Part shown: positions 5,692 through 39,391 of the stretch, in pieces
Layout of the letters: the number at the start of each line of letters is the position of its first letter
Position numbering within the stretch: position 1 is the first letter of the stretch
Assembly: GCA_964017145.1 (NCBI GenBank)
Contig: OZ024845.1
Coordinates: 3,534,001-3,598,000, forward strand
From: Agrocybe praecox
Lineage: Eukaryota > Basidiomycota > Agaricomycetes > Agaricales > Agrocybaceae
Length of the DNA stretch: 64,000 nt
Reading direction: 5' to 3'
Program-made: the position numbers and the translations under genes
The notes under the pieces: generated by a model
What the model was told of the DNA's origin: nothing
Database searches by the model: none
The model's input: only the letters and a program-made list of their open reading frames with translations

Positions 5692-6291
5692 TTACTTGTA
5701 TTGAAGAACCACAACAGTGGCATCATCGTGGTCCGCATCTTGCATGTCTTCAGAGATGACCTAAGCAACAATAGCGGGAGGTGTAAGTATTAAGGAAAAT
5801 CGTGGTGTTAGAAAATGACGCACTGTGGTAGAAATGAATTGCATCGGGTAGTCCGGCTCTGGAGCCTTGTCGATCTGCAAGAGTGTAGAATTTAAGAGAT
5901 CGTCTCCGCACTAAGGTGAACTCTCGATACTCACAGTAAGCGGTCCAACCATCTTGGAGTTTACAAAGCTGCTGCCCTGGGAGTGACTAATAGTGACGCG
6001 GACAGTCGCATTGAAGTTGAAGGGACCAAACGACCAATGGGGTCTCATGTTGATTATATCTTTCAGAGGAACACGTCTGCCTTGACCTTGGAAGGTGGCA
6101 GAAGCGATGACATTGTTGCTGCCGTCGAGGACCTCGAGCCTGACCTGCTGGTTTAGGTCGGCGTTTACAACCTAGAGAAATATGTCAAGATTAAAACTTG
6201 TGCAAGAAGCTGTATAACGGCATCAACATACACCGGCGACGAATCCCTTGAAGCCAGAAGTAAGGGGAAAGCTGATTGGAGTGGTAGACAT
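5692..6291 (-). CDS. LecB-like lectin family, type A (copy A1, left arm)
   Basis: Four exons (60, 237, 51 and 69 nt in the mirror copy) encode about 138 residues without signal peptide or membrane segment, so the product is probably cytosolic. Exon 1 ends in FKGFVAG; exon 2 begins VVNAD and contains ATFQGQG and HWSFGPF; exon 4 reads VISEDMQDADHDDATVVV. Aligned by eye to calcium-dependent LecB/PA-IIL lectins, the VNA asparagine and the E, D, D, D, D of the last exon fall on the residues that hold the two calcium ions. The chain ends one residue short of the terminal glycine that completes the site in that family. It pairs divergently with B1 (7376-8009); a TATAAAAG box lies at 6360-6367. The sequence is identical to the right-arm copy. 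Lectin function is inferred; the gene model is well supported by five parallel copies. Confidence 0.7.
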
Positions 6292-7375
6292 AGTGAGCTT
6301 TGTTCTTGAGTAACTAAAGTAGATGCTTGTGCTGAGGGATGGTTCAAAAATTCGTTCATCTTTTATAACCTTTCGTTCGCAAGTTCCCGTGACCATTAAG
6401 TTCATTCATATGGGACCCGAACAAATGCTAGTTCTGCGATTGGTTGCTCCCGGCTATGCTATTCGGCGATGGCAGCTGAGAACTATGATTGTCTCTCAAG
6501 CGACGGCAATCCCTGCTTCTGACCTCTCCACACCCCAGATCCGTTATCAATTAACAATGTAAAAGAACGTACAGGTCACCGGAGCTACAGATGTATCGTC
6601 TACTCAATGCTAGACGTCCATTCCAATCCAAGGGATCCTGGACTTCCTGGAACGAATGAGAAGATTGTACTTATAAATAGGTCATCTACTATGCGGAGAT
6701 AAAATGTACCTGAATAGGAATCGATATCTGCTCATCAACACCAACAAATGGCTCCATGGGCGCCTGTGAATCTGATCAGACATGCCCTCGTCCTCAACAC
6801 TCGTTATCTGTCCTGTTAGATATTCTTCAATGTTATCGGTGTTGATCGAGTGAAATTCAATGCCAGGGTCCAATGTTCGTATCGACGAGAAGCAACGCCA
6901 CTGCCGGCGTGCCGACTGGGTGCGGGAACATTCGAATCTTCCATGCGCGTATAAGCTCCCGGTTTTCAGGGTGCAGTACTTGATAGTTTTATCCTTATAA
7001 GGGAGTAGAATACCTGGAATGTGCATGAGATTACTGAAAGAAACCTATTCGAAAATGAATGATTAGATAGCTTTTCATTTGAACGAGTATCCTTTCTCAC
7101 TCACCCACATTTGGTGACTGAGCACTCATCAGTTGTACACACCAATAACCTGGCGCAAGATGATAATCATGCCTCGTGTATATTATTCTTATCTCATTAC
7201 ACCACAAGGCTCCATTGTAAAATTCATTCCTCAGCTAATGAGTAGCGAAGATCGATTAGTTTTTGCGTGACACCCAGGGCAACTTATAAGGGCCCAAGAT
7301 CGATGACAACTTGAAGAACTACAATACACTTTTTCGAGTGCGCAATCTTTCTTTTTCTCACTTCCCCTCGTAAAT
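6292..7375. promoter_or_regulatory. shared divergent promoter region A1/B1 (left)
   Basis: The region lies between the 5' ends of A1 (minus) and B1 (plus). TATA-type boxes sit at 6360-6367 (towards A1, about 70 nt from its ATG) and at 7284-7290 (towards B1, about 90 nt). The middle (6682-7026) is strongly conserved in the other units but its reading frame is not, so I treat it as non-coding or decayed. Confidence 0.55.
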
Positions 7376-8009
7376 ATGGAGACTGCGGATTTTACCATCG
7401 ATGACCAGAGCCGTGGTCTACTGCCAATAACCCGTATCGACCTTGAACCAGGTTTCTCGGGTCTCGTTGCTGCCGTATGTTGACTCCCGACACCGCTTTA
7501 CAATCGATGCTGATAGACATCGCATAGACCGTCAATGCATCCTACAACCAGCTCCTACGCGTTGATATCTTTGATAAAGAGCACCGGTACAGAATCTCTT
7601 CCATGACGTTCAAAGGTCAGGGCGAAAGAGTACAGATGAAGAACGCATACGGGCATGATCACTGGTCCTTTGGCCCATTGGATGCTCCTGCAACCATTCA
7701 CATTAGTATCCTTCATCGTCGGGGAACAGGGCTCTGGTTACCGTCCAAAACCGTTGGCCCAATGACAGTGCGTTGTTAAAATTCTCTGCGTCAAGGAATA
7801 GCACTTATTTCTCTCGCGCTCTTCAGATCGTCAAACTTCCGGAGGACGAAGTATATAACAAAACCTTCTATCATTCCACGGTAGGTCTCTGAATACTCTA
7901 TTACCGGCTCATCGATGCTGGCTAAGATTATTACGCCTAGGTTATCTCTGAGGATGCCACTGACGCCTCTCACGATGACTGTACTGTTCACGTGCTTCAA
8001 TACAAGTAG
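7376..8009 (+). CDS. LecB-like lectin family, type B (copy B1, left arm)
   Basis: Exons 7376-7474, 7528-7767, 7827-7880 and 7941-8009 join in phase 0 and encode about 153 residues. Intron positions match type A, so A and B are paralogues. Compared with A there is a roughly 15-residue N-terminal extension (METADFTIDDQSRG). Core motifs are PGFSGLVAA, TVNASYNQ, MTFKGQG, HWSFGPL, ISILH, SKTVGP and VISEDATDASHDDCTV. The calcium-site pattern of LecB-type lectins is kept except that one aspartate (second D of DxD) is serine in all B copies. The VNA loop that sets sugar preference in that family reads N-A-S-Y here versus N-A-D-L in A1. No signal peptide is seen. Function is inferred from motifs only. 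Confidence 0.7.
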
Positions 8010-8538
8010 TAATGAATGGTTTTTCGAGTTTATTTTCCAAATACGTAGAAACCCACGCAATCTATATCAATGATGTATTGTTTAATAAAATCAGGTGCGG
8101 TTGAAATTAACGGACCGTTGGGCACATGTATTGATAAGGAGAACAAGGTAAAGATGTGCTCGTGAGTATCCCCTCACAGGAGCTATGTACTCCGGTCAGT
8201 CCTACCTCCTTAACACATCACAGAAAATAACTTTCCAGTCATAACAAATGAACATAGGTCACTCAATTAATACAAAGAAAACGAGAGAGAAGAGAAAAGA
8301 AATACGACACTGGGAGCAACACTATAGATAGGCGAGCAGCACAGCCATCGACGATCGGTTTTGTTCCCAATGTGTATCGAGAAATCGAAAATTGAAGCAG
8401 TTCAGGAATCCGCAGGATCGTGTAACTGGGCTTGAAGCGCGTCGAGCAACCTCAGATGATGGAGATAGATGTTCACTGAAGGGTGCAAAAAAGTCCGCAT
8501 TTGGAACCTAACACATTACTCAGCGTAAGTTATTAGGC
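8010..8538. other. 3' flank of B1 and end of left arm, no gene
   Basis: The repeat arm continues to 8370 and contains no gene. Beyond 8370 the sequence is unique and leads into the MITE-like element at 8539. Confidence 0.5.
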
Positions 8539-8657
8539 GGGGTCAGAGTTGACGATTCTGGCTCGATTCTGTCACGATTCTGAGTTCGATTCTGAGTCGA
8601 AACTGCGGTTGGTTTCGTTCCGAGAATCGGCATAAAAGTCGGTTCTACTCTGACCCC
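8539..8657. mobile_element. MITE-like element with GGGGTCAGAG ends
   Basis: It begins GGGGTCAGAG and ends CTCTGACCCC, terminal inverted repeats of about 10 bp, with repeated GATTCTG words inside and the conserved tail GAGAATCGGCATAAAAG. A second member with the same ends and tail lies at 20803-20896. It is too short to encode a transposase. A C-run follows the right end. Confidence 0.65.
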
Positions 8658-8989
8658 CCCCCGGAACTATACAACTCTTACCGGTTCGATTCTCGTACAC
8701 AAAACCTACTGGAAATTTTAATTTATTCTGCTGCAGGCTCCATAGCGTATTTTTAAAGAAAAAAAATGTATACTGTTAACAACCATGACCGAGCACACTG
8801 ACCACCAGCGGCAGTCTCAAGGAGTCTAATGAAGTTTTTTTTATTTCCAGTTTTTGCCGTGTAGTACGTACCCAGCATGTAGCCCAACCTTCAGTACAGT
8901 TTTTCCAAAATGCACACCCCCACGGTGGTGTATAAGGTACAGAGGTACCTGCTCTAGACATCAGGAAAAATAAGGGGAATAAATTTGGA

Positions 8990-9165
8990 GTAGCATCACA
9001 GTAGAAATCAGGACCAGAATCGGTGCCAGAATCGTGCCAGAATCGGTGCAGTTGCGGCTCTCGAGTCGCAACTGCAAACACTCGATTCTGGCACTTTCCC
9101 ACGATTCTCGCAAAACCGATTCTCGTCAGAATCGATAGAATCTGTGAATTCCCCCCCTATTGTAG
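8990..9165. repeat. GAATCG-rich repeat with hairpin
   Basis: Repeated CCAGAATCGG words and an imperfect palindrome (about 9046-9073, GCAGTTGCGG / CGCAACTGC arms) resemble the interior of the nearby MITE. It is probably a diverged relative; its ends were not found. Confidence 0.4.
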
Positions 9166-9488
9166 TTGGCGGCGTTGAGACTCCCACATCTTTACTTCCA
9201 TTAGAGTACACCTTAATTTCATAATTAATCCAAAAAATATATGAAAGAAATTCCGACCACGTGATGTCATTCTTCACCACCGCGCCAGCTTCAGTGCCTC
9301 GAACATCAAATCCACAAGCAAAGGGAAACGGCTGCTTAGTCATTGCACCGCCACCTTAAAACTGGTTCTCATCGAAATTACATCGTGTCTCGTTCAAAAA
9401 CCAGTATGTAGCTAATATAGAATCACTATTAGTAGAAAATGTAGTAGAGTACAATCACTAGAAATATTATATGGTAATTATATATCAA

Positions 9489-9882
9489 TTACGAGTCTTC
9501 ATCGTCAGAAATATACAAAATATCCCCGGCACTGTGACACAGTGTGTCATTAGTTTCGGCCACCTTGAAGTGAGACAGTAACAACTGTGTTGCTGTTTCC
9601 TTCGTTCCTCCTTGTGCACGATATCGTGCAGCGGCCCTTTTTAACTCTACAATGCGCTCGAGATTAGTTTTGATATTACTTTTGGCTGGGATCTTCATTG
9701 GGTGGCTTCTTTCTGTTTTCGTGTATTTTTTGATCGCTTTTTGAAATTGCGGGACATCTAATAGTATTATACAAAAGGTTGATAGTCTAAACAGAGCCAT
9801 TGAGCAAGAAAAAAATGTTTTATTACTTACTTTCTAGAAAATCCTCCCAACGAGGCAAGATCAGACGCGTCAAAACGCGCAT
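9489..9882 (-). CDS. hypothetical small basic protein, two exons
   Basis: A start at 9882 (MRVLTRLILPRWEDFLE) is joined by a 73-nt GTAAGT-TAG intron (9758-9830) to an 89-codon exon, in phase, giving about 106 residues. The product has a Lys/Arg-rich middle (KAIKKYTKTERSHP, ELKRAAARYRAQGG) and an acidic end (ISDDEDS). I do not recognise the family. The pattern (short hydrophobic/aromatic start, basic helices, acidic tail) would suit a nucleic-acid-binding or transposon-derived fragment, but that is only a guess. It lies in the unique part of the inverted-repeat spacer, close to MITE-like repeats. Confidence 0.4.
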
Positions 9883-10797
9883 TACATAATCATTAAATTA
9901 GTTTTTCATGCATCACCAATTAGAACAGACTTATTCCTTGCTGCGACGCGTTCGAGTCCCATTGAGCGCGTTAATATCATCTATTTAATGACGCTCAGGG
10001 CATGGTTGGTTTAATTTTTGAGAAAATTGACCGGAAGTGGTATTTCTTATGTAATTAGACCCTTTGCCGAGCGAAATAATCAATTTCACTCCAACGGACC
10101 CCTGCCGATACATTTTTGGCCATGATTATGTACTACATATAGGGCGAAGGAGTGCCGCATTAGGGAGAAAAAGTGTTGGTAAAAAATCCGAAATGATCTG
10201 GCGAGGATAAACAAGTACAAATAGCCCACCGCCTAATGCGGTGTTGCGCCTCCCCACTTCCTGGTTATAACTTATTATTAACAAAATTATGGTACCATCT
10301 GCTCAATCATCAGGAATATTTCGTCTAAGGGGGACCGGGATTCAAGAACGATAATCGGTAGGATACGTACTACTATGGCTATTTGCCTTTTCTTGCTTGC
10401 ATGAACTAAACAAGATGTAAAGATAGGGAGGTGATTTGGAATTGACACATACGGGTGCGCGTGACCTTTCAACCTTAATTGTGGTTATTCTAATTCATGA
10501 CTGGGTGGGTAAGAATCGTATTTAACCCTCGACAACGCGTACTAAGCTGGTTTTTATTCCATGCTTTTTGCAGGTGTGTTCATAATTGTTGTCTTTTTGT
10601 GGATAGTGGCCAAGGCATGATGTACGTGACGAAGAAATTGGACGTTTGCAGGCATATTTTGGGAGAGAGGGGAGTTATTCTAGGTAGCGGTTTAAAAGGA
10701 AAACAGATGTTTATCAACATTTGTTATTCAGTTTGATATCTGTATGGGCCACTGTCATTCCTATATATCATATTCGAGCTGCTTCTGCATGAATAAT
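9883..10797. other. no supported gene
   Basis: AT-rich spacer sequence. A 79-codon plus-strand ORF (10497-10736) has no supporting feature. GTTCGAGTCCC near 9950 resembles a tRNA B box but no cloverleaf forms around it. Confidence 0.4.
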
Positions 10798-11400
10798 TTA
10801 TAATATTGGTTTCTGGTGGTTTTTACACATTAAAAAAACCACAAAAACCGGCCAACAACACGGAAATAGGGAAACTTGACAACCAAAGTCTAGTTTTCTG
10901 GAAACATGTAAATTAAAGAAGTCGCGAAGATGGCACCCAATACGAGGTGTAAGCTTAATCTTACAATTTTGACTCCAATTTGCCCTTATCCAACCCAATT
11001 CTATGCTTACCAGGTTTCCGAACACCTATAAACGGCAGAAACCGTCGGAAACGAAGTTGAAACAAATATTACAAATTACTGATGGCCTGCGGTGGGGTTT
11101 TTTACTACGGTTTGGCGTACCTAAAAATGTCAAGCACGGCGGAATATCTCGACTTCGACCTCGAAAACCCAAAAGGGCCATCGTAGGCAAATTCGGCATT
11201 CTATCGGCATGTTTCTCAAACATTGCCATTTTAGGTAAGTACCATGGCTGTGTTGTTAAATCTAAATTTAGTACTAAAAGTCCGAAAGGCCGGCTGGACC
11301 CTGGACGCTCGTCGCTCATCATAAATTCGTGCGTCAAGTCTCAAGCTCCTGTTGACGGACGTAGCAGCGGGCAAGACACGCGATGGTGCAAATGGATTAA
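10798..11400. repeat. repeat fragment shared with 22.1 kb
   Basis: About 11028-11085 (CACCTATAAACGGCAGAAACC onward) recurs at about 22118-22180, directly beside the foldback element there. This suggests a dispersed repeat into or beside which the foldback element inserted. ORFs overlapping on both strands here (around 11003-11407) are not supported. Confidence 0.5.
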
Positions 11401-12344
11401 GCAATAAAGTGAAACGATGGTGATCGTTATGAGTTCGAAAGGTAGGGGTGAGACGAGGCGGAATCGTCTCGGGCTTCTAAACCTCTAGGTGATATGGGTA
11501 TGGAACGGAAAGGGTAGGTGTGGAACGTTGCGTGGATCAATAACGAGTGTGAGACAGGTACATATCTTCTGCTGGGGAGTACATACAAGTAGGACTACGT
11601 ATATATATGTATTTCTACTTGTAACGATACTCAGGGGGCAAGATATGGAATCAAATCAAAAGGGAAAGGTTTATCTAGGCGAAAAGAAGTTTTCCAAAAG
11701 AAATTAAAGAAGCGACGGTGCACCCTTAAGGGTGCTTTGCTGGAAGAAAGGAAAATAAACCAAAAAGGGTAATATAAGGAAAAGGGGGTTATGTGGATGT
11801 GGTACGATGATAAGGAAAAGGAACAATGAGAGGGGAATGCGCAGTTGGGGTGCGTGTCGAAACAGTGCGTTTGTGCGATTTCCAGGTGTACGCTGGGTGC
11901 GTACCCTACAAAAGACTACGAGGACAGACGATCTGGTATATACGAGGAGGCGTGGCTGTGTCCGGCAACACCCGAGGTCAGTCACCAATGGACCTTCGTT
12001 CAACAGCTCCCAATCTGCGGGGAGTGCTTAATGGGCCCTTAAATTTTAAACGTTTATCCTCGCTGCCCTATTGGATGAAAATGTACGGGAGAACGATACA
12101 ATATACACACCTCCGCGAAACTCGTACTTTCACAGGGCACCGTTCGGATTTCCTTCCCGCGTTACACGGTAGGCGCCGATACCTATTTCTCGGAAAAACA
12201 TATTTCGCTTCAAAAGCTTTACGCCGTCAGTGCAGTTCGCCAAGCTTGCCAGTACTATTCTTATGCCAACCCACGCATTCAATACCACCACACTCATTTC
12301 TCGTCAAACAGTCGATATATGTGTTTAGGACAGAACTCGGGGAT
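11401..12344. other. no supported gene
   Basis: GA-rich on the plus strand (about 11640-11830). Several overlapping ORFs of 60-190 codons occur in competing frames without introns, motifs or homologues that I recognise. It may be decayed transposon sequence. Confidence 0.35.
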
Positions 12345-12804: not shown

Positions 12805-12889
12805 CAATAGATGTTGTAAGGTTGATATATAAATAACAGTAACTTTCGTATTTCATTTGTCAACAAATGACGATAACTTCCGTCTTAGG

Positions 12890-13640
12890 ATAAATAATTC
12901 ATCCCTCCCATGTGTATAATAAATCTCTGTGCACTTATCCATCCGTGTATAATTATCCCTCCCATGTGTATAATAAATCTCCGTGTACTTATCCATCCAT
13001 GTATAATTATTCATCCCGCGCATGGATAAATTGTCGCTGAATTTATCCATCCCACTCATTAATAAATAGTCGCTGAATTTGTCCATCCCGTGCATGGATA
13101 AATCGACGTTGAATTTATCCATCCGGCGCATGGATAAATAATCGCTGAAACTATCCATCCCGTGCATAGATAAATCGTCGCCAAATTTATTCATTATTTA
13201 TCCATCAGCCTTGGATTAGTAAATTACGTGCGGCGCTTATTGAAAGAAAGACGGGCATATTTTCGTTTTCAGCGCTTGAATAAATGCGCCCTTTTATTCA
13301 TCGCGCATTGATAACTGCCCGCACATTTATCCGTGCGTGATGTTGGCGTGATGGATAAAAGCACGGACAGTTATCCATGCTCAAATCAGCGCGATGAATA
13401 AAACAGGCACACATTTATCCATGCACCATGGATAAAACAGGCGCACATTTATCCATACGCATGGATAAAATTGGCGCACATTTATTCATACACGATGGAT
13501 AAAACGGGCGCACATTCATCTGTGCGTGATGAATAAAACCGCGGGCAATTATCCATGAGCGATGAATAAAATAGGCGGACGGTTATTAATAACGCATGAA
13601 TAACACTGGCGTACATTTATTCATACACATTTTTATCGAT
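12890..13640. repeat. palindromic TTTATCCAT/ATGGATAAA array, left
   Basis: More than a dozen quasi-palindromic units of about 40-60 bp, each built from TTTATCCAT and ATGGATAAA separated by CCCG/GCGC-type loops. In 12890-13200 the unit is about 42-45 bp; from 13280 it becomes a longer type with ACGGGCGCACATTTATCC. A 113-codon minus-strand ORF here is simply the tandem repeat read in frame. Confidence 0.85.
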
Positions 13641-14579: not shown

Positions 14580-15250
14580 AATAATCAAACCCGGATGGAT
14601 AAATGGCCATGAATTTATTCAATGCGTATGGATAAATGGCTCCAAATCTATTCAATGTGAATAGATAAGTGGTGGTAAAATAATCGAACGCGGATGGAAG
14701 GAATTGATAAATCCAGCGACGATTTATTCATGCCGGGATGGATAATTTCAACACAAATTTATCGATCCGGGGAATCGATAAACTCGGCGACGATTTATCC
14801 ATGCACGGGATGGACAAATTCAGCAATGAATTATCCATGCACGGGATGGATAATTATACACGTAACACTGATGGATAAGTACACGGAGATTTATTATACA
14901 CATGGGAGGGATAGTTATACATGGATGGATGAGTACACAGAGATTTATCATACACATGGGAGGGATGGATTATTTATTCAACCATGGCTACTATTGATAC
15001 GCCAGTTTTATCCATCACGCACGAATAAATGCCGGTGCATTTTATTCATACGCCTATCTATAAATAAATGTGAGCCAGTTTTATCCATTGCGCATGAATA
15101 TATGTGCGCTTGTTCATCCATGAGCTATGGATAACTGCCCGCCCGTTTTATCCATGCGCTACGGATAAATGTAGTCTCTAGTAGGAAGCGGGATGGATAA
15201 TTACTGCTGGTATTTATTCAAAGGTACTGTACATGAATTATTTATCCTAA
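14580..15250. repeat. palindromic TTTATCCAT/ATGGATAAA array, right
   Basis: The counterpart of the left array, largely in inverse orientation. It includes the unit with GATTTATTATACACATGGGAGG that pairs with the left side near 12900-13000. Together the two arrays make the element fold back on itself at several scales. Confidence 0.85.
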
Positions 15251-16226: not shown

Positions 16227-16587
16227 TTGGGAACAAAACCGATCGTCGATGGCTGTGCTGCTCGCCTATCTATAGTGTTGCTCCCAGTGTCGTATTTCTT
16301 TTCTCTTCTCTCTCGTTTTCTTTGTATTAATTGAGTGACCTATGTTCATTTGTTATGACTGGAAAGTTATTTTCTGTGATGTGTTAAGGAGGTAGGACTG
16401 ACCGGAGTACATAGCTCCTGTGAGGGGATACTCACGAGCACATCTTTACCTTGTTCTCCTTATCAATACATGTGCCCAACGGTCCGTTAATTTCAACCGC
16501 ACCTGATTTTATTAAACAATACATCATTGATATAGATTGCGTGGGTTTCTACGTATTTGGAAAATAAACTCGAAAAACCATTCATTA

Positions 16588-17221
16588 CTACTTGTATTGA
16601 AGCACGTGAACAGTACAGTCATCGTGAGAGGCGTCAGTGGCATCCTCAGAGATAACCTAGGCGTAATAATCTTAGCCAGCATCGATGAGCCGGTAATAGA
16701 GTATTCAGAGACCTACCGTGGAATGATAGAAGGTTTTGTTATATACTTCGTCCTCCGGAAGTTTGACGATCTGAAGAGCGCGAGAGAAATAAGTGCTATT
16801 CCTTGACGCAGAGAATTTTAACAACGCACTGTCATTGGGCCAACGGTTTTGGACGGTAACCAGAGCCCTGTTCCCCGACGATGAAGGATACTAATGTGAA
16901 TGGTTGCAGGAGCATCCAATGGGCCAAAGGACCAGTGATCATGCCCGTATGCGTTCTTCATCTGTACTCTTTCGCCCTGACCTTTGAACGTCATGGAAGA
17001 GATTCTGTACCGGTGCTCTTTATCAAAGATATCAACGCGTAGGAGCTGGTTGTAGGATGCATTGACGGTCTATGCGATGTCTATCAGCATCGATTGTAAA
17101 GCGGTGTCGGGAGTCAACATACGGCAGCAACGAGACCCGAGAAACCTGGTTCAAGGTCGATACGGGTTATTGGCAGTAGACCACGGCTCTGGTCATCGAT
17201 GGTAAAATCCGCAGTCTCCAT
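16588..17221 (-). CDS. LecB-like lectin family, type B (copy B1, right arm)
   Basis: The mirror image of 7376-8009: the same four exons and the same 153-residue product with VNAS, MTFKGQG, HWSFGPL and SEDATDASHDD. It is transcribed away from A1-right, with which it shares the 17222-18305 promoter region. Its TATA-type box is at 17307-17313. All splice sites are GT-AG and the frame is intact. As in all B copies, one of the five acidic calcium-site positions is serine. Confidence 0.7.
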
Positions 17222-18305
17222 ATTTACGAGGGGAAGTGAGAAAAAGAAAGATTGCGCACTCGAAAAAGTGTATTGTAGTTCTTCAAGTTGTCATCGATCT
17301 TGGGCCCTTATAAGTTGCCCTGGGTGTCACGCAAAAACTAATCGATCTTCGCTACTCATTAGCTGAGGAATGAATTTTACAATGGAGCCTTGTGGTGTAA
17401 TGAGATAAGAATAATATACACGAGGCATGATTATCATCTTGCGCCAGGTTATTGGTGTGTACAACTGATGAGTGCTCAGTCACCAAATGTGGGTGAGTGA
17501 GAAAGGATACTCGTTCAAATGAAAAGCTATCTAATCATTCATTTTCGAATAGGTTTCTTTCAGTAATCTCATGCACATTCCAGGTATTCTACTCCCTTAT
17601 AAGGATAAAACTATCAAGTACTGCACCCTGAAAACCGGGAGCTTATACGCGCATGGAAGATTCGAATGTTCCCGCACCCAGTCGGCACGCCGGCAGTGGC
17701 GTTGCTTCTCGTCGATACGAACATTGGACCCTGGCATTGAATTTCACTCGATCAACACCGATAACATTGAAGAATATCTAACAGGACAGATAACGAGTGT
17801 TGAGGACGAGGGCATGTCTGATCAGATTCACAGGCGCCCATGGAGCCATTTGTTGGTGTTGATGAGCAGATATCGATTCCTATTCAGGTACATTTTATCT
17901 CCGCATAGTAGATGACCTATTTATAAGTACAATCTTCTCATTCGTTCCAGGAAGTCCAGGATCCCTTGGATTGGAATGGACGTCTAGCATTGAGTAGACG
18001 ATACATCTGTAGCTCCGGTGACCTGTACGTTCTTTTACATTGTTAATTGATAACGGATCTGGGGTGTGGAGAGGTCAGAAGCAGGGATTGCCGTCGCTTG
18101 AGAGACAATCATAGTTCTCAGCTGCCATCGCCGAATAGCATAGCCGGGAGCAACCAATCGCAGAACTAGCATTTGTTCGGGTCCCATATGAATGAACTTA
18201 ATGGTCACGGGAACTTGCGAACGAAAGGTTATAAAAGATGAACGAATTTTTGAACCATCCCTCAGCACAAGCATCTACTTTAGTTACTCAAGAACAAAGC
18301 TCACT
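17222..18305. promoter_or_regulatory. shared divergent promoter region A1/B1 (right)
   Basis: TATAAAAG at 18230-18237 faces A1 and the TATA-type box at 17307-17313 faces B1. A conserved stretch (17571-17915) has a 114-codon ORF, but units 3 and 4 carry an indel after NTDNIEE that destroys the frame, so coding is unlikely. Confidence 0.55.
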
Positions 18306-18905
18306 ATGTCTACCACTCCAATCAGCTTTCCCCTTACTTCTGGCTTCAAGGGATTCGTCGCCGGTGTATGTTGATGCCGTTATACAGCTTCTTGCACAAG
18401 TTTTAATCTTGACATATTTCTCTAGGTTGTAAACGCCGACCTAAACCAGCAGGTCAGGCTCGAGGTCCTCGACGGCAGCAACAATGTCATCGCTTCTGCC
18501 ACCTTCCAAGGTCAAGGCAGACGTGTTCCTCTGAAAGATATAATCAACATGAGACCCCATTGGTCGTTTGGTCCCTTCAACTTCAATGCGACTGTCCGCG
18601 TCACTATTAGTCACTCCCAGGGCAGCAGCTTTGTAAACTCCAAGATGGTTGGACCGCTTACTGTGAGTATCGAGAGTTCACCTTAGTGCGGAGACGATCT
18701 CTTAAATTCTACACTCTTGCAGATCGACAAGGCTCCAGAGCCGGACTACCCGATGCAATTCATTTCTACCACAGTGCGTCATTTTCTAACACCACGATTT
18801 TCCTTAATACTTACACCTCCCGCTATTGTTGCTTAGGTCATCTCTGAAGACATGCAAGATGCGGACCACGATGATGCCACTGTTGTGGTTCTTCAATACA
18901 AGTAA
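18306..18905 (+). CDS. LecB-like lectin family, type A (copy A1, right arm)
   Basis: Exons 18306-18365, 18426-18662, 18723-18773 and 18837-18905 give about 138 residues, identical to the left-arm copy. Residues 1-20 end in GFKGFVAG. Residues 21-99 hold VVNADLNQQ, TFQGQG, HWSFGPF and TVRVTISHS. Residues 100-116 are IDKAPEPDYPMQFISTT, and 117-138 carry the acidic motif and end LQYK. The final strand after the acidic cluster (DDATVVVL) is typical of LecB-type lectins. No signal peptide is present, as in many cytosolic mushroom lectins. TATAAAAG lies 69 nt upstream of the ATG. Confidence 0.7.
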
Positions 18906-19318
18906 TGTAGAAGTGGAAGCGCTTCGGGATTATCTCTGAATCAAGAAAATCATAAAAAAACAAATACCCCGACGTCTTTTGATTATCTGTACCTGTAAAT
19001 CTTGCACATTCAAATACAATATTTTGATGATTGACCGAGTCCATCCATATGGGTAATACATCTCAAATATAGATCTTATATATCGAAGCAGTACTAATTA
19101 GCGCCTGGTCTCTTTCTACATTGTGTGGACCGCTTTGCTTCGCTACTAGTGCAAACCTTTTCATTCGTTTTATCTATGCATCCCAAACAATGTCGAGGCT
19201 GCACGGTCCGAATTGTAATTTAGCGTGATTGTGCCGATGCTGCCGGGCCAATGGTGGTTAACGCACACCATAAATGTGATCAATATGATTGTGCCAAGCC
19301 GGCTTTGGCACAAAAAGT

Positions 19319-20102
19319 GGGATCATCCTCGCCGTCGTCATCATTTTCTCAAGTACAAGTAAGAGTCCTTTCCCGTAATGGGTCCCAGTATCTGCGGTGA
19401 CTCAATCATTCTTCCTCGTGCACAGTGATAACTCTAATGAACAACGATTTTTCATTTTATTTTCTAGTTCCTCGGGACGAGTTTAGCACTGGCGATTCCT
19501 CTGTCATGCAACGCAGGCGGTGCAATTCTGCAGCCTGTGTGGCTTTGAAAACCCCTTCAGCACCTCCAATCACTCCGAATCACCGCTAACTTGCCAGTTC
19601 CGGGCTCTGCATCGTCGTCGGCATCGTCACAGTCAACCCTCAATCTGCTGGAAAGACCCACGGCGTCAGAGACGAACATGTCGCTGATGTCAGTTCTGTA
19701 GCTGATGAACGCGTCGTCTGCGATGTTCGCCGCTAAGGCCTCTGGTATAGCCGCTGCACTTGCCCTGTAGGAAGTTTCAGGATGCTATGGACAAAACGAT
19801 ATTGGGAATAGATGCGTTTTTTTTGTTCATTTTCAAACCTTTTTACCAATCGAACCTTCTAGGCGCTTCAATTTGGCGTAAGATTGCGTGAGCTGCTGTG
19901 GACGTTAGCACCTAGCCTCACCTTCCGAATCCACCAACCGCCAGAGACAGAAGAGGAGCGCCAGGCCGTGCATGAAGTGGCACCGCTCTGGGTGCACGAG
20001 CAATGGCCTTGGGTGTATGCTGAGAGACGGCTGCGGAGAACCCAGGGAGAGGGTGGTGTCCCGTTGTGGTCGAAGACTCCTTTGAGAGATGGAACAAGAT
20101 AA
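19319..20102 (+). pseudogene. gene C copy 1 (right arm), pseudogene
   Basis: The same broken C gene as in the left arm up to 20057: GTG in place of ATG, an in-frame TAG just before MNASS, a frameshift in the hydrophobic segment and the 4-nt exon-end deletion shared with copies 3 and 4. After 20057 its 3' end switches to the copy-4 type (PLRDGTR* tail) whereas the left arm carries the copy-3 type (IALTEVE tail). The exon after the intron (from about 19862) still reads FGVRLRELLWTLAPSLT. Confidence 0.7.
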
Positions 20103-22348: not shown

Positions 22349-22960
22349 TTACTTGTATTGAAGGACGACTACGGTGGCATCGTCGTGGGACTGATCTTGC
22401 ATGTCTTCAGAGATGACCTAGGTAGCAATGGGTGGGGAGGGGTAAGCGTCAATGGAAACTGTGGAGCTGCAATGCTTTGGTGACGTACTGTGGTAGAAAT
22501 GAATTGCATGGGGTAGTCGGGCTCGGGAGCCTTGTCGATCTACAAGATTAACAGGTTAAAAAATCGGGTGTTCGCATCAAAGTAGATTCTTCACGCTCAC
22601 AGCAAGAGGTCCAACCATTTTAGAGTTGGAGAAGCTGCTACCGTCAGGGCTATGAGAGATCGTTACACGAACAGTCGCATTGAACGTGAAGGGACCAAAG
22701 GACCAATGGTCCCTGTTGTTGAAAATATCTTTCAGGGGAATACGACTGCCTTGAGCACGGAAGGTGGCGGAAGTGAGCACACTGTTGCTGGTGTCTATGA
22801 CCTCGATTTTAACTTGCTGGATATAGTCGGCGTTCACAACCTAACAAAAATGTGGGTGTAATTACTCATGTAAGGATCCTCAGACACGAGAGAGACATAC
22901 ACCGGCGACGAATCCCCTGAAGCCAGGAGTAAGAGAAAAAGAGATGGGGCTGGTAGTCAT
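22349..22960 (-). CDS. LecB-like lectin family, type A (copy A2)
   Basis: Four exons with the same junctions as A1: MTTSPISFSLTPGFRGFVAG, then VVNADYIQQVKIEV, TFRAQG, DHWSFGPF and ISHSPDGSSF, then the IDKAPEPDYPMQF exon, then VISEDMQDQSHDDATVVVLQYK. About 139 residues, frame intact. It is the most divergent A copy and differs in the acidic motif: the second D of DxD is serine, as in B proteins, which may weaken one calcium site. It is the only A that does not sit in a recent duplicate, so it may represent the older locus together with B2. TATAAAAG is at 23035-23042 (minus strand). Confidence 0.68.
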
Positions 22961-24646: not shown

Positions 24647-25277
24647 ATGGAAACAACACATCCTACCATTGGTAACGAGAGCCGTGTGGTAGTCCCAATA
24701 ACCCGTGTCAATCTTAGACCAGGTTTTACAGGGCTTGTCGCTGCCGTAGGTTGCTTGCCACCATTAACTTACGATCAATATTGATAATCTTCTCATAGAC
24801 CGTCAATGCGGCTTACCACCAACTCTTATTGGTTGACATTTTTGATAAAGAGCACCACTACAGGATCTCTTCCATGACTTTCAAAGGACAGGGCACAAGG
24901 GTGCAGATGAAAAATGCATACGGGCAGGATCACTGGTCCTTCGGCCCCTTGGATGGTCCTGCAACTATGCACATCAGTATCCTTCATCGTCCAGGAGCAG
25001 GGCACTGGATCCCCTCCAAAACCGTGGGCCCAATGACGGTCCGTTATTCTAGTTATATGCCAGTTTATAGAGCTCATTTCCTTGGCCTCTGTTTCAGACC
25101 GTGAAACTTCCCGAGGATGAAGTGTACCACGAAACCTTCTATCATTCCACGGTGAGTATCTGAGAACTTTATTACGACTTCATCGGCTCAGACCATTGAA
25201 CCAAGATTATCTCTGAGGACGCCAATGATGCTTCTCACGACGACTGTACTGTTAACGTTCTTCAATACAAGTCATGA
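24647..25277 (+). CDS. LecB-like lectin family, type B (copy B2)
   Basis: Start METTHPTIGNESRVV; exon 1 ends GLVAA, exon 2 begins TVNAAYHQ and holds MTFKGQG, DHWSFGPL, ISILHRPG and SKTVGP, exon 3 reads TVKLPEDEVYHETFYHST and exon 4 IISEDANDASHDDCTVNV. About 154 residues, frame intact, with one extra serine after the family-ending LQYK. The second intron begins GTCCGT rather than GTGCGT, a weaker donor. It is more divergent from B1 and B3 than those are from each other. Paired divergently with A2. Confidence 0.68.
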
Positions 25278-31560: not shown

Positions 31561-31976
31561 GGAGTCATCCATGGAGTAAATCTTTAGCGGTGCCATATTC
31601 GATTTCTTATACATCACTGAGGTTTCTGGATAAACGTTGGGAATGGCTGTGCCAGTGCTCGCCTATTTATAGTGCTACTTCTGGTGTACGTATTTCTCTT
31701 CTTTTCGCTCGCTTTTCTCTTCTGATTTATTGAGCGGCCTATGTTTATTTGTGCTGTGGTCAGGTTGTAGAATTGACAGGAGTACATAGATCGTGTGAGG
31801 GGACACTCGCGAGGACATCTTTACCTTGTCGTCTTTATGGATACATGTGCCCAACGGGCAGTTAATTTCAACTGCATCTAATGTATTTCAATAATATATC
31901 ATTCATAAAGATTGTCTTCATTTTTAAGTATTTTAAACACAATGGCAGTCGTTATGCTTTGAGAAACCATTCATTA

Positions 31977-32610
31977 CTACTTGTATTGAAGTACGTGAAC
32001 AGTACAGTCATCGTGAGAGGCGTCAGTGGCATCCTCAGAAATAACCTAGGTGTAATAATATTAGCCAACATCGATGAGCCGATAATGAAGTACTCAGAGG
32101 CCTACTGTAGAATGATAGAAGGTTTTGTTATATACGTCGTCCTCTGGAAGTTTGACGATCTGAAGAGAGCGAGAGAAATAAGTGCTATTCTTTGACGCAG
32201 AGAAATTCAACAACGAACTGTCATTGGGCCAACGGTTTTGGACGGTAACCAGAGGCCTGTTCCACGACGATGAAGGATACTGATGTGGATGGTTGCAGGA
32301 GAATCCAATGGGCCAAAGGACCAGTGATCATGCCCGTATGCGTTCTTCATCTGTACTCTTTCGCCCTGACCTTTGAACGTCATGGAAGAGATTCTGTACC
32401 GGTGCTCTTTATCAAAGATATCAACGCGTAGGAGCTGGTTGTAGGATGCATTGACGGTCTATGGTATGGTTATGAGCATCGATTGTAAAACGATGTCGGG
32501 AGTCAACATACGGCAGCAACTAGACCGGAGAAACCTGTTTCAAGGTCGACACGGGTTATTGGTAGTAGACCACGGCTCTGGTCATCGATGGTAAAATCTG
32601 CAGAGTCCAT
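31977..32610 (-). CDS. LecB-like lectin family, type B (copy B3)
   Basis: Start MDSADFTIDDQSRG; same length (634 bp) and exon structure as B1. Differences include a Ser for Ala after GPLD and Asp for Glu in LPEDD. It keeps TVNASYNQ, MTFKGQG, HWSFGPL and SEDATDASHDD. Intron 2 begins GTTCGT, another weak donor. The frame is intact throughout. A TATA-type box lies at 32668-32677 (minus strand). Its divergent partner is A3 (33641). Confidence 0.7.
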
Positions 32611-33640: not shown

Positions 33641-34240
33641 ATGTCTACCACTCCAATCACCTTTGCCCTTAGTCCTGGATTCAAAGGATTCGTCGCCGGT
33701 GTATGTCGATACCGTTATACAGCTTCTTGCACCAGTGATAATCTTGACATATTTCTCTAGGTTGTAAACGCCGACCTAAACCAGCAGGTCAGGCTCGAGG
33801 TCCTCGACACCAGCAACACTGTCATCACTTCTGCCACCTTCCAAGGTCAAGGCAGACGTGTTCCTCTGAAAGATATAATCAACATGAGACCCCATTGGTC
33901 GTTTGGTCCCTTCAACTTCAATGCGACTGTCCGCGTCACTATTAGTCACTCCCAGGGCAGCAGCTTTGTAAACTCCAAGATGGTTGGACCGCTTACTGTG
34001 AGTATCGAGAGTTCACCTTAGTGCGGAGACGACATCTTAAATTCTACACTCTTGCAGATCGACAAGGCTCCAGAGCCAGACTACCCGATGCAATTCATTT
34101 CTACCACCGTGCGTCGTTTTCTCACACCACAAATTTCTTTGATACTTACACCTCCCGCTATTGTTGCTTAGGTCATCTCTGAAGACATGCAAGATGCGGA
34201 CCACGACGATGCCACTGTTGTGGTTCTCCAATACAAGTGA
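33641..34240 (+). CDS. LecB-like lectin family, type A (copy A3)
   Basis: 600 bp, four exons, 138 residues, intact. Exon 1 reads MSTTPITFALSPGFKGFVAG. Exon 2 differs from A1 mainly at DTSNTVITS versus DGSNNVIAS. The acidic motif SEDMQDADHDD is the full five-acid version. Neighbours are B3 (divergent) and pseudogene C3 downstream in the same orientation. Confidence 0.7.
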
Positions 34241-34654
34241 TATGGAAGCTGAAGTGCTTTGCCATTATTTGCGTCCCGAAAATCATATAAAAAAAACAAA
34301 TACCCGGCCGTCTTTTTGACTCCCTGTAACTGTAAATCTTTCCAATTCAGAAATACGATGTTTTGATGAGTGACCAAGTCCTGCCATATGGGTAATATAT
34401 CTCAAATATACATCTTATACATCGAACCAGTACCAATTAGCGGCTGGTCTCTTTTGCCGTTGTGCGTAGCACTTAGCTAAGCTACTGGTTCGAATCTTTT
34501 CCATCATTTTATCTATGCGTCCCCAACCAAGTTGAGGCTGGACTGTCCGAATTATGATTTAGCATGATTGTGCCGATGCTGCCGGGCCAATGTTTGTTAA
34601 CGGCCACCAGAAACGCGATCAATATGATATGCCAAGCTGGCTTTGGTAGAAAAA

Positions 34655-35530
34655 ATGGGATCGTCCTCGCCGTCGTCATCGTTTTCTCAAGTTCAAGTAA
34701 GAGTCGTTTCCCGCAATGGGTCCCAATATCTGCGGTGATTCAATCATTCTTCCTCGTGCACAGTGATAACTCTAATGAACAACGATTTTTCATTTTATTT
34801 TCTAGTTCCTCCGGACGAGTTTAGAACTGGCGATTCCTCTGTCATGCAACGCAGGCGGTGCAATTCTGCAGCCTGTGTGGCTTTGAAAACCCCTTCAGCA
34901 CCTCCAATTACTCCGAATCACCGCTAGCTTGCCATTTTTAGTCTCTGCGTCGTCGTCGGCAGCGTCGCGGTCAAACATAACTCTACAGGAAAGACCCACA
35001 CATTCAGAGACGAACACGTCGTTGATGTCGGTTCTGTCGCAGATGAACGCGTCGTCTGCGATGTTCGCCGCCAAGGCTTTTTTTTTGTATAGCCACTGCA
35101 CTCGCCGCCGGAGGAGGTTTCGGGATGCTATGGACAAGACGATATTGGGAATAGGTGCGTTTTTTTCATATTCATTCTCAAACCCCTTTCACCAATCAAA
35201 CCTTTTAGGCGCATCAGTTTGGCGTAAGATTGCGTGGGCTGCTGTGGAAGTTCGCACCTAGCCTCACCCTCCGAATCCACTGACTACCAGAGACAGAAGA
35301 AGAACGCCAGGCGTGCCATGCATGAAGTGGCACCCTGAGGGTTCACAAGGAATGGAATTAGGCGGATGCTGAGAAACCACTGCGGAGAACATCCGAAGAG
35401 GGTGGTTTCCCGCTGTGGTCGAAAATTGCTTTGACAGAGGTGGAGGCTGAGCGCTGAAGCTAGACTCGAACGTGCGAAGAGGGAGCAGGAGGCGCGAGAA
35501 AGGGAAAATGACCGATGGCATATAGTTATG
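34655..35530 (+). pseudogene. gene C copy 3, pseudogene
   Basis: Begins MGSSSPSSSFSQ and retains TSLMSVLSQMNASSAMFAAK, but a T-run (35077-35086) and an indel disrupt the hydrophobic segment. The 4-nt deletion before the intron (TGGACA|AGACG) shifts the frame. The exon after the intron still shows FGVRLRGLLWK.. and the 3' end includes the Glu/Arg-rich tail (ARLERAKREQEARERE) in a shifted frame. The same tail is found next to the left arm of the inverted repeat. Confidence 0.65.
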
Positions 35531-35694
35531 TATGTCCTTACTTTCCTTCTTGGCATGTCGTCGTTATGTCTTGCAAATGTTCGTGAATCCCTGATAGTGC
35601 ACCGTAGCAACGAAATTAGTTAAAATATTTCCACCCATCCTTTAATATCACCTAAACCGCAGAACTGCGTCAAAAGATTGCGAATCGCGGAAAA

Positions 35695-36330
35695 GTCCGA
35701 GTCTGTCTTTTGCTTTTTGTGACGTCAATTTGACGTCATCCCATTCTTCGATAGCGTTTCAGCCACCATTCAATCATAGGTGTCTGGACGTCCATCGTCA
35801 ATTCTATCACCCTCAGAGCTACTTGCCGGTGGTAAACCTTTCGAGGAGTTTGTTAGTTGGAAGGAAAGTTGGGCGCCGCTCCGTCCTGTCGTTGGGAGGT
35901 ATGTGGGTTTCTCTGCTCTTACACATATATACGAGCTCTGCGACGTTTACGTATCCGGTCAACTTTCCGTTTTCACTGAACTTCCAGTCTTTGTTCTCCT
36001 CACCACGCTCCTCAATCATCGGGCCTTCGGTGTACTTTGTTACTCAAATCCCTCTTTATCACTTCATCCAGCTCAGCGACCCTATTATCGTTGCTACCTA
36101 CCTTGGCAAGAACCTACGAGCGAATCAAGGCCTCGTTTACTTCTAAGGACATCTGCGACTCCTTAGACGCTTCTCATCACAATCACCCTCGACCAAAACT
36201 CCGATCCTTTGCTGTCCTCTTTTACCTTCTCCGTCATAAGATGTCGCTTGGTCCGTGGTCGCCATTCTTGCCACTGTCGTTCACCCGCAACGTTTCTGCG
36301 ACGAAATTGCTCTCATGTGTGACTGGTTTC
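35695..36330. repeat. block E, copy 3
   Basis: Uninterrupted counterpart of the block hit by the hAT-like element; reads GGTGTACTTTGTTACTCAAAT across the insertion point. ORFs of 121-138 codons in three overlapping frames indicate lack of stops rather than one real gene. Confidence 0.6.
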
Positions 36331-36389
36331 ATACCACGCCGGTCGGTTCCATATCTACAAGTAGAATGGTTTCATATACCTACCCCAAG

Positions 36390-36990
36390 GATTGAATGTT
36401 GACCACTGGTCAATCGATGTTCCCTAAACGAGGACGCCGTTCATCATCTAGTCCATGACTTCCTGTTGTCGTGTTCATTGTTCCACGCTGCTGCCTGTTT
36501 TTACCCGGCGGCCTCTGCGGCAGTCTTTTGGTGTCCGATGTACGTACTTGGTAATGATGTGAAAGTAATGCAATGATCCTCGTACACCATAATCGCTCAC
36601 AGAAACCTCGTACTTCCGCTCTCCTTTTAGTATCGTCTCCCTTTACGCGTGAAAAATATGGTCCACACCCCACCAGAACCTTCCCATTAGTCGTGGCTCC
36701 GCAGAGCCATATGGCTCTTGGCACCCTACCACCATGAATTTTACTGCTACAATTTACATGGCGTTACCGACACTTCCAAACCTTCTCGAAATTTCGTCGG
36801 AAGGTTTTGTCAGCAGAAGACAGGATCTTTCATACCGCTTTTAATCAAAACGTCGACTCACCATGTTCCAGCCCCGACTTGCCTAGATTCTGTGCATCGT
36901 GCCCAAGAGCTAGTATGCATGCCATTGGTTTATCAGTGATTTATTCATAAGGCATTCTCCCCATACGTTGTCTGTTTATTCAGTAAAGGA
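36390..36990. repeat. block H, copy 2
   Basis: Homologous to 30640-31260, lacking about 70 bp near its end and with an extra short insertion near 36556. Confidence 0.65.
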
Positions 36991-37290
36991 TGCCCCCGGA
37001 ATTTCCGAGCTGTTGCGATCTTGGGGAGATGTCTCCAAGGTCCGTAGAACCATGTCCAACGGAAGTCTCATTTGCTGAGAAATCTTCAAATGATTTTTTT
37101 TTCTATTCTAATCGCGCAACCAGTAGATAAGTGGGCACAAATGTGGGGGGAAAGGATATAAAATGTTGAATGTTTAGTGGGCGTTCGAAAAGAGGTTGGC
37201 GCAGGTGATGTCGCAAGCGAAGCGAAGCAGGTGTGGAAAGAGACACGTTTGAGAATTATAGATATCCGGATGGACTTTGGGTAGCTCAAT
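36990..37290 (-). pseudogene. 3' fragment of the seven-TM gene (copy 2)
   Basis: Same fragment as 31240-31560, slightly longer at its end: it includes the GAGTTGTCGCGATCTTG-like sequence (here GAGCTGTTGCGATCTTG) of the intact gene's last exon. Broken by indels. Confidence 0.6.
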
Positions 37291-37707
37291 AGGAGTCATC
37301 CATGGAGTAAATCTTTAGCGGTGCCATGTTCGATTTGTGATACATCACTGAGGTTTCTCGATAAACATTGGGAACGGCTGTGCCAGTGCTCGCCTATTTA
37401 TAGTGTTATTTCTGGTGTACGTATTTCTCTTCTTTTCGCTCGCTTTTTTCTTCGGATTAATTGAGTGGCCTGTGTTTATTTGTGCTGTGGTCAGGTGGTA
37501 GGATTGACAAGAGTACATAGATCCTGTGAGGGGACACTCGCGAGGACATTTTTACCTTGTCGTCTTTATGGATACATGTGCCCAACGGGCAGTTAATTTC
37601 AACTGGATCTGATTTATTTGAATAATAAATCATTCATAAAGATTGTCTTCATTTTTAAGTATTCTAAACACAATAGCAGTCGTTGTGCTTTGAGAAACCA
37701 TTCATTA

Positions 37708-37835
37708 CTACTTGTATTGAAGCACGTGAACAGTACAGTCGTCGTGAGAAGCGTCAGTGGCATCCTCAGAGATAACCTAGGCGTAATGATCTTAGCCAGC
37801 ATCGATGAGCCGGTAATGAAGTACTCAGAAACCTT
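37708..37835 (-). pseudogene. LecB-like type B, truncated to its last exon (copy B4)
   Basis: Exon 4 (37708-37776) and part of the preceding intron remain. Then at about 37835 the sequence jumps to DNA that lies upstream of the B start in unit 3 (word TTTTAGAATGGAGCCTTGTGGTG). About 0.85-0.9 kb, including exons 1-3 and the promoter-proximal DNA, is deleted. Its partner A4 is therefore single. Confidence 0.8.
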
Positions 37836-38791
37836 AGCTGAGGAAGGCATTTTAGAATGGAGCCTTGTGGTGTAATGGGATGAAAATAATATACACGAGG
37901 CATGATTATTATCTTGCGCCAGTGTATTGGTGTGTACCAATGATGAGTGCTCCGTCGCCAAATGTGGGTGAGTGAGAAAGTATGCTCATTCAAATGCAAA
38001 GCTATCCAATCGTTCATCTTCAAACAAATTTCTTTTAGTAACATGATGCACATTCCAGGTGTTATGCTCCCTTATAAGGATAACACTATCAAGTACTGCA
38101 CCCTGAAAACCGGGAGCTTATACGCGCATAGAAGATTCGAATGTTCCTGCACACAGTCGGCATACCGGCAGTGGCGTTGCTTCTCGTCAATACGAACATT
38201 GGATCCTGGCATTGAATTTCACTCGATCAACACCGATAACATTGAAGAGGACTCTAACAGCACAGCTAACGAGTGTTGAGAACGAGGGCATGTCTGATCA
38301 GATTCACAGGCGCCCATGGAGCCCTTTGCTGATGTTGATGAGCAGATATCGAATCCTATTCAGGTACATTTTATCTGCGCATAGTACATGAGCTATTTAT
38401 AAGTACAATCTTCTCATTCGTTCCAGGAAGTTCCGGGATCCCTTGGATTGGAATGGACGTCTGGCATTGGGTAGAGGATGCGTGTGTAGCTTCGGTGACC
38501 TGTACGTTCTTGTACATTGTTAATTGATAAAGGATCTGGGGTGTAGAAAGTTCAGAAGCAGGGATTGGCGTCGCTTAAAAGTTCGAATAAGGAAGCCATA
38601 GTTCTCAACTGCCATCGCCGAATAGCATAGCCGGTAGCAACCACTCGCAGAACTAGCATTCGTTCGAGTCCTACATGAATGAACTCAATGGTCACGAGAA
38701 CTTGCGGACGAAAGGTTATAAAAGATGAACGAATTTTTTACCCATCCTCAGCACAAGCATCGACTTTAGCTACTCAAGAACAAAGCTCAAT
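37836..38791. promoter_or_regulatory. remaining intergenic/promoter region of A4
   Basis: Retains the conserved central stretch (38041-38380) and TATAAAAG at 38717-38724 in front of A4, but no longer has a B gene on the other side. Confidence 0.5.
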
Positions 38792-39391
38792 ATGTCTACC
38801 ACTCCAATCACCTTTGCCCTTAGTCCTGGCTTCAAAGGATTCGTCGCCGGTGTATGTCGATACCGTTATACAGCTTCTTGCACCAGTGATAATCTTGACA
38901 TATTTCTCCAGGTTGTAAACGCCGACCTACACCAGCAGGTCAGGCTCGAGGTCCTCGACACCAGCAACACTGTCATCACTTCTGCCACCTTTCAAGGTCA
39001 AGGCAGACGTGTTCCTTTGAAAGATATAATCAACAACAGACCCCATTGGTCATTTGGTCCCTTCACCTTCAATGCGACTGTCCGTGTCACTATTAGTCAC
39101 TCCCAGGGCAGCAGCTTTGTAAACTCCAAGATGGTTGGACCGCTTACTGTGAGTATCGAGAGTTCACCTTAGTGCGGACACGATCTCTTAAATTCTACAC
39201 TCTTGCAGATCGACAAGGCTCCAGAGCCGGACTACCCGATGCAATTCATTTCTACCACAGTGCGTCATTTTCTGATACGGCGATTTTCATTAATACTTAC
39301 ATCTCTCTCTATTGTTGCTTAGGTCATCTCTGAAGACATGCAAGATGCGGACCACGATGATGCCACTGTTGTGGTTCTTCAATACAAGTGA
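38792..39391 (+). CDS. LecB-like lectin family, type A (copy A4)
   Basis: 600 bp, four exons, 138 residues, intact. Close to A3 but reads ADLHQQ for ADLNQQ, NNRPHWSFGPFTF for NMRPHWSFGPFNF. The full acidic motif SEDMQDADHDD is kept. It remains intact although its B partner has been deleted, so A may not need a physically linked B. Confidence 0.7.

Follow-up and report, generated by a model that had tools for sequence, protein, structure and literature searches.

What are the small genes that stand head to head, pair after pair, in one stretch of the Agrocybe praecox genome, and what might their products do? The stretch, 64,000 nucleotides of contig OZ024845.1 (assembly GCA_964017145.1, positions 3,534,001 to 3,598,000) and called the window below, holds two gene types, A and B, which an earlier reading of the letters alone (the original prediction) took for eukaryotic members or structural analogues of the LecB/PA-IIL lectins. 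The best explanation as a whole, and in our judgement probably the right one, is that A and B are Agaricomycetes homologues of LecB that bind sugar and have been amplified.

Two gene types and their homology to LecB

All nine genes listed as intact by the original prediction were confirmed by a spliced-model search with phase-0 GT-AG introns, which returned exactly these nine, each with a start and a stop: five A genes of 138-139 amino acids and four B genes of 153-154. A1 lies at 5692..6291 on the minus strand (138 amino acids; exons 6232-6291, 5935-6171, 5824-5874 and 5692-5760) and B1 at 7376..8009 on the plus strand (153 amino acids; exons 7376-7474, 7528-7767, 7827-7880 and 7941-8009). 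B2 follows at 16588..17221, minus strand (153 amino acids; exons 17123-17221, 16830-17069, 16717-16770 and 16588-16656), and A2 at 18306..18905, plus strand (138 amino acids; exons 18306-18365, 18426-18662, 18723-18773 and 18837-18905). The remaining gene models are A3 (22349..22960, minus, 139 amino acids), B3 (24647..25277, plus, 154), B4 (31977..32610, minus, 153), A4 (33641..34240, plus, 138) and A5 (38792..39391, plus, 138). The predicted layout, an ATG, four exons, three phase-0 GT-AG introns and a stop, is common to A and B, and the introns fall at the same sites in all nine: after the first strand (between GFVAG and VVNA in A), after VGP[LM][TA] and before [VI]ISED. VNA, TFxxQG and SEDxxDxxxDD are each present in all nine proteins, so the shared intron positions and motifs of the original prediction stand as well. 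When the sequences were compared, A and B were 45-49% identical.

Protein searches yielded 19 relatives (best expect value, E, 8e-54), the named sources being Agrocybe pediades, Dendrothele bispora (Agaricales), Leucogyrophana mollusca (Boletales), Tulasnella (Cantharellales) and Mycena floridula. Four of them (P0007, P0008, P0018 and P0019) look truncated or mis-spliced and were excluded from profiles and tallies, although P0007 and P0008 were present in two early alignments, the first of which was searched against the PDB. A mushroom profile of 30 sequences (15 of 22 genes of this genome and 15 of the 19 database proteins) was compared by hhalign with a bacterial PA-IIL profile of only three sequences (L138, L140 and L143, each Pfam-confirmed at 72-158 bits). 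The match scored 94.2% (E 1.2e-7, score 50.1) and was collinear over 110 columns, with no more than 8.4% and a score of 24.0 in 150 column shuffles and 0.2% for the reversed profile. The N-terminal part without the acidic C-terminal strand still matched PA-IIL at 75.6% (maximum 11.5% in 100 shuffles), and the C-terminal part alone did so at 72.5% (maximum 1.3% in 100 shuffles). Because each part matches the PA-IIL profile separately, the profile comparison argues for homology and not mere analogy, and we consider it almost certain that A and B are homologous to LecB.

Predicted structures agree. With Foldseek, a model of A's Agrocybe orthologue gave 26 PDB matches at E<=0.001, all of the LecB family and among them the sponge lectin thrombocorticin, and all 20 such matches for a model of B's Agrocybe orthologue were LecB family too. 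The A- and B-type models of relatives are thus predicted to have the LecB beta-sandwich fold, at 18-23% and 13-16% identity to LecB, respectively, in the structural alignments. With every significant fold match in the LecB family and the acidic motif aligned with LecB's metal-site residues, neither outcome that would have refuted the original prediction was seen, as judged from the models and the sequence; its proposal of membership or analogy is supported, and the separate matches of both halves favour membership.

Some observations pull the other way. The modelled proteins are relatives, with 67% identity to A1 and 58% to B1, and the A-type relative, P0001, has a serine at position 101, of which more below. 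Moreover, neither A1 nor B1 matched PA-IIL in hmmscan with PF07472.16, and nor did any of the 15 relatives scanned out of 19 (P0001-P0007 and P0010-P0017). The original prediction had named PF07472 as its check, and the outcome is mixed: single sequences did not match, but the profile-profile comparison did, and the protein database lists PF07472.18 for 8 of the 19 relatives, so that Pfam versions or methods disagree. A PF07472 profile search of this genome, which reads exons apart, found nothing. Searched against PDB sequences, protein A1 alone gave only gp79 (E 0.42, not significant); a sequence-profile search with the first early alignment gave only PA-IIL, at a non-significant E of 5.5, and one with another alignment gave no match. 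Could A and B then be an unrelated beta-sandwich whose acidic C-terminal loop came to look like that of LecB by convergence? The missing Pfam match and the poor PDB profile searches are what such an origin would predict, but the whole-length profile and fold matches, the separate matches of each half and the negative controls make it very improbable.

Kinship with DUF4114 was considered and dropped: the DUF4114 profile (14 sequences from 21 loci, six having been removed for a stop codon in the stretch and one having read empty) scored 0.1% against the mushroom profile. PA-IIL itself scored 77.4% against DUF4114 over 26 columns. Weak Pfam matches to NAD_binding_8, DUF7700, DUF4360, SLED and HTH_5 fell below the cut-off and were ignored. 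On the bacterial side, PF07472 had no match in the 296 genomes from the class to which a Streptomyces belongs or in the 292 from a cyanobacterium's phylum, zeros that do not show absence; in the P. aeruginosa phylum it matched in 4 of 398 genomes, twice only weakly. These searches pointed to no bacterial donor. When DNA was scanned for a pattern of bacterial LecB genes, most of what came back belonged to an unrelated enterobacterial protein, and L073 alone was LecB among the 119 stretches listed.

The metal site and the specificity positions

In a joint alignment of the 22 genome copies and 15 relatives, S-E-D-x-x-D-x-[S/D]-H-D-D lies over LecB residues 94-104, and the acidic residues fall on the metal-site residues of LecB, as had been proposed. 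By this alignment the metal and sugar ligands are largely kept: Asn21 in 22 genome copies and 13 relatives, Glu95 and Asp96 each in 22 and 14, Asp99 in 19 and 12, and both Asp103 (Asn in LecB) and Asp104 in 22 and 15. Two sets of sequences stand out. P0009 of Leucogyrophana mollusca reads SEARQEASHDD, with Asp96 and Asp99 both changed, and might adjoin the intact copy P0003. Three A copies on contig C3, near 150, 197 and 310 kb (L012, L013 and L015), combine Asn99 with Ser101 (SEDGANSSHDD or SEDGANTSHDD), and their sites are the least LecB-like among the 22 genome copies.

Position 101 and the C-terminus weigh against a canonical site, as does the Asn99 of those three copies. Asp101 is a calcium ligand in LecB (PMC8752737), and its counterpart in thrombocorticin, D117 by our alignment, binds both calciums according to the excerpted text of PMC9700728. 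This bridging aspartate is a serine in 15 of the 22 genome copies, all B included, as in A3 (S-type motif SEDMQDQSHDD); only A1, A2, A4 (D-type motif SEDMQDADHDD), A5 (also D-type) and three copies on C3 have Asp. Among the 15 relatives the residue is Ser in 14, Ala in one and Asp in none. LecB has ten residues after Asp104; nine follow in 20 of the 22 copies, leaving the chain one residue short of Gly114, whose carboxylate in LecB reaches the calcium of the neighbouring chain, and only B3, which ends in LQYKS, and the B gene of contig C11 have a tail as long as LecB's. In the relatives, nine residues follow in 10 of 15 and the tail is longer in the other five. In the B model, the chain ends at the residue paired with LecB 113. 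The same excerpts describe the C-terminal swap as a hallmark of the family and report that one extra C-terminal residue diminished fucose binding in thrombocorticin (PMC9700728). Judged by the alignment, most members lack the complete two-calcium site. Given Ser101 in most copies and the shorter C-terminus, we class the mushroom proteins as LecB-fold homologues and not as canonical two-calcium lectins.

How the Asp101 copies arose can be read from the tree. They form two separate groups within A, as judged by eye, with Ser in P0001 and the remaining A copies, and the codons (TCC or TCT for Ser, GAC or GAT for Asp) are at least two base changes apart. It is therefore simplest to suppose that Asp came back on two occasions, although loss in several lines or gene conversion may account for the pattern.

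One could take these departures further and suppose that the LecB-fold proteins have mostly left the two-calcium sugar mode, holding one calcium, another metal or none, and serve as scaffolds or as A/B hetero-oligomers, for instance in self/non-self recognition. Asp101 is missing from 15 of 22 genome copies and from all 15 relatives, the C-terminus is shifted in 20 of 22, and intact A and B genes are divergent neighbours at six places. There is also a precedent of sorts in Podospora het-B, where, according to excerpts of PMC10890737, a protein with a lectin-fold domain (of another kind of lectin fold) is paired in allorecognition with the protein encoded next to it. We nevertheless regard this as unlikely, if far from negligible. 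Seven copies do have Asp101, and pocket positions 21, 95, 96, 99, 103 and 104 rank with the most constant columns (P 0.001 for A and B together, 0.0006 for the whole family but 0.06 for A or B alone), which would be unexpected of a pocket no longer in use. A toxin/antidote or drive system was weighed as well as a reading of the divergent pairs, but none of the results speaks to it.

A further pattern concerns the positions that, in LecB, lie around the ligand. Ser23 and Thr45 contact the fucose methyl in LecB (PMC8752737), and according to PDB titles residues 22, 23 and 24 are those mutated in solved LecB structures. Across the 14 distinct A copies, positions 23, 24 and 45 have a mean entropy of 1.83, compared with 0.50 for all 136 columns, and so count as hypervariable (P 0.0003-0.0007 in two runs). 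The P values are uncorrected, and position 22 was omitted from the first variability test after the tally had been seen. Several results temper the case: position 22, in the same LecB loop, is nearly invariant, and when it is included P becomes 0.0017 for A, 0.18 for B, 0.016 for A and B and 0.05 for the whole family. For B alone, positions 23, 24 and 45 give P 0.09. Other positions are as variable as these three. We suggest that at least the Asp101 copies probably bind sugar through calcium.

Amplification in the window and the genome

Queries of the genome (59.2 Mb, 347 contigs) with A1 and B1, whose counts for so large a family are lower bounds, allowed at least 22 intact genes to be built on four contigs, 15 of them A (five in the window, one on C11, three on C4 and six on C3) and seven B (four in the window, one on C11 and two on C4). 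There are relics besides: a broken A copy on C3 near 207 kb, and B relics on C11 (near 12.7 kb) and at two places on C3 (near 312.2 and 318.3 kb), the latter two standing head to head with intact A genes. The window itself holds a B relic at 37632..37829 on the minus strand, a 198-base-pair (bp) remnant of the 3' end (including the exon 4 stretch) with 93.9% identity to the B4 gene by blastn, head to head with A5. Intact divergent A/B neighbours number six, four in the window and one each on C11 and C4. The proposed paired, amplified layout thus fits the window, where all four intact pairs are divergent, and a family that extends beyond it, but not C4, where two of the three A/B neighbours are in tandem. 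From four B relics against one A relic, it looks as if the divergent pair is the older layout and B has been lost more often than A.

For 22 selected pairs of paralogues, four of which were identical or saturated and gave no value, the ratio of nonsynonymous to synonymous substitution rates (dN/dS) was 0.06-0.40 in 17 of 18 comparisons and 0.70 for A1/A5. These low ratios, together with the strong matches in other mushrooms, argue that the genes are not chance open reading frames.

The pairs looked at appear to carry two facing promoters and not one shared core, since A and B have separate core elements. In the A1/B1 intergenic region (6292..7375, 1084 bp), a TATAA begins 76 nucleotides upstream of the A start codon and another 91 nucleotides upstream of the B start codon, with a TCACG/CGTGA element 25 (A) and 19 nucleotides (B) beyond. 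Nine promoters on C6 and C11 (five A, four B, those of A2/B2 being uncounted as identical to A1/B1) share the arrangement, with TATAA 65-91 nucleotides upstream of the start codon and TCACG or CGTGA 19-27 nucleotides further upstream. One C4 pair has TATAA within 200 nucleotides on the A side only.

Some of the amplification might be more apparent than real. An inverted repeat (4508..8370 and 16227..20089, found by sequence comparison) carries A1/B1 in one arm and B2/A2 in the other. Its six mismatches all fall in 4511-4539, near the outer end; the core is perfect over 3,831 bp (4540-8370 against 16227-20057), and the spacer is 7.9 kb. Because they sit in these arms, A1 and A2 are identical, as are B1 and B2, and each identical couple was counted as one sequence. 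The identity may be an effect of assembly, and the repeat may equally reflect recent duplication or gene conversion. If one locus had been laid down twice in inverted orientation, and the other copies were haplotypes, part of the amplification would be artefactual, which would be compatible with LecB homologues that bind sugar. We hold this to be a minority possibility, though a serious one: within the 3,831 bp even introns and intergenic DNA are identical, where other window copies are ~74-94% identical over the same stretches. Yet the identity would be no different after a recent inverted duplication or gene conversion, and the other gene copies have synonymous divergences (dS) of 0.06-1.6 where computable and occupy different places on four contigs. 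Even without A2 and B2, therefore, 20 distinct genes are left.

The window has several other features. An open reading frame at 44350-44868 on the plus strand contains ASLMSALSQMNASSVMFAAKVFG and has no Pfam match; it overlaps a sequence that recurs in the amplified unit on the far side of A (40099-40586, 34931-35624, 19593-20075 and 4141-5004). The segment 60553-60993(+) matches the Terpene synthase family 2 C-terminal domain (PF19086, E 2.7e-22) and possibly belongs to a terpene synthase gene. MYND-finger-like ends were seen in the open reading frames 56567-57166(-), at E 0.16 and so below the cut-off, and 648-1118(+), by eye only and without a match. Finally, 12853-13197(-) and 14679-15134(+) repeat each other in inverted orientation, with 81% identity over 285 bp; translated, they give MDKYTEIYYTHGRD-like units, and they are perhaps a minisatellite.

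Kinship, possible role and significance

In a maximum-likelihood tree of 36 sequences, midpoint-rooted for drawing only and including a piece of P0008, P0001 of Agrocybe joins the A genes (100/98), whereas the B genes are joined by P0016, also of Agrocybe, and by P0008 (100/100). The A/B split therefore predates the parting of the window species from that Agrocybe. In protein searches that need shared five-residue words, no B-type sequence was seen beyond the genome of the window, Agrocybe and P0008. A more elaborate history, which we offer only tentatively and would sooner doubt than accept, is that mushrooms hold a separate, old LecB branch with a rebuilt metal site (Ser101, Asp103 and a short C-terminus), amplified here as divergent A/B pairs with diversified specificity positions, with Asp101 regained in two groups and with possible mixed A/B dimers that complete each other's pocket. 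If this were true, the mixed dimers would give a combinatorial repertoire of sugar recognition.

The closest known system is the LecB/PA-IIL family itself (PF07472; LecB, CV-IIL, RS-IIL, BclA and the C-terminal domain of BC2L-C). The mushroom proteins differ from LecB in Asp101, which is Ser in most; in Asn103, which is Asp in all 37 scored; in Tyr102, which is His in 36 of 37; and in a C-terminus one residue short in most. The MAFFT alignment also gives them ~20 additional residues around WSFGP, their genes have three introns, and the single-sequence Pfam scan found no match. Eukaryotic PA-IIL-like lectins are not unprecedented, being described in excerpted sources for two ascomycete genera (PMC10481521) and a sponge (PMC9700728). 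Thrombocorticin, the sponge lectin (PDB 7f9f, 7f91 and 7f9j), is ~6-13% identical to the mushroom proteins in structural alignments and, unlike most of them, keeps the two-calcium Asp and the Gly C-terminus; amplified gene pairs are not mentioned for it in the excerpts (PMC9700728). The homologues of Metarhizium and Hirsutella are PA-IIL-like proteins of fungi, as A and B are, but they are ascomycete and described as ~40% similar to the bacterial ones; the excerpts name these two genera for the LecB family and no mushrooms (PMC10481521). Among the open-access papers of PubMed Central that our searches listed, we found no description of an A/B-type family in mushrooms, and a term search of the main text of a lectin survey found neither LecB nor PA-II (PMC8227253).

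We suggest, then, that A and B represent two paralogous branches of an Agaricomycetes family homologous to the bacterial PA-IIL/LecB lectins, each protein being predicted as a single small beta-sandwich in which the C-terminal SEDxxDx[S/D]HDD strand and the VNA loop would be the equivalent of the LecB calcium and sugar pocket. Loop positions 23, 24 and 45, near the sugar in LecB, differ between A copies and may tune what is bound. The Asp101 copies (7 of 22, including A1, A2, A4 and A5) would be ordinary calcium-dependent binders, and the Ser101 copies (15 of 22, including all B) might bind calcium more weakly or differently. Going beyond the genes, their homology, the predicted fold and the residue pattern, we infer that a dimer with calcium-filled sites would bind fucose- or mannose-type sugars of organisms that feed on the fungus or infect it, and that amplification would widen the range of sugars recognised.

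The role that fits best, by analogy, is that of a defence lectin, a proposal whose chances we put near even. It is prompted by the apparent lack of a secretion signal, by the amplification and by the variation of A at sugar-contact positions. No strongly hydrophobic N-terminus was seen in the seven distinct window proteins (maximum 12-residue Kyte-Doolittle mean of 1.2 in the first 30 residues). Fruiting-body lectins of the CGL2 and CCL2 type have no secretion signal. Like A and B, these and other cytoplasmic defence lectins of fruiting bodies are small mushroom proteins, but CGL2 and CCL2 have different folds (galectin and beta-trefoil). Mushrooms store cytoplasmic lectins active against nematodes and other feeders, according to excerpts of PMC3355094, PMC6238071 and PMC2798750.

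The findings bear on mushrooms and on the LecB family alike. A and B add a candidate class to the defence-lectin repertoire of mushrooms, one that a single-sequence scan with the Pfam version used had missed. The copies form a natural series of metal sites, with Asp101 or Ser101 and two lengths of C-terminus, which allows each element of the two-calcium site to be dissected. Moreover, a LecB-type family that has so far been described chiefly in bacteria is now placed, in multiple copies, in mushrooms of at least three orders (Agaricales, Boletales and Cantharellales).

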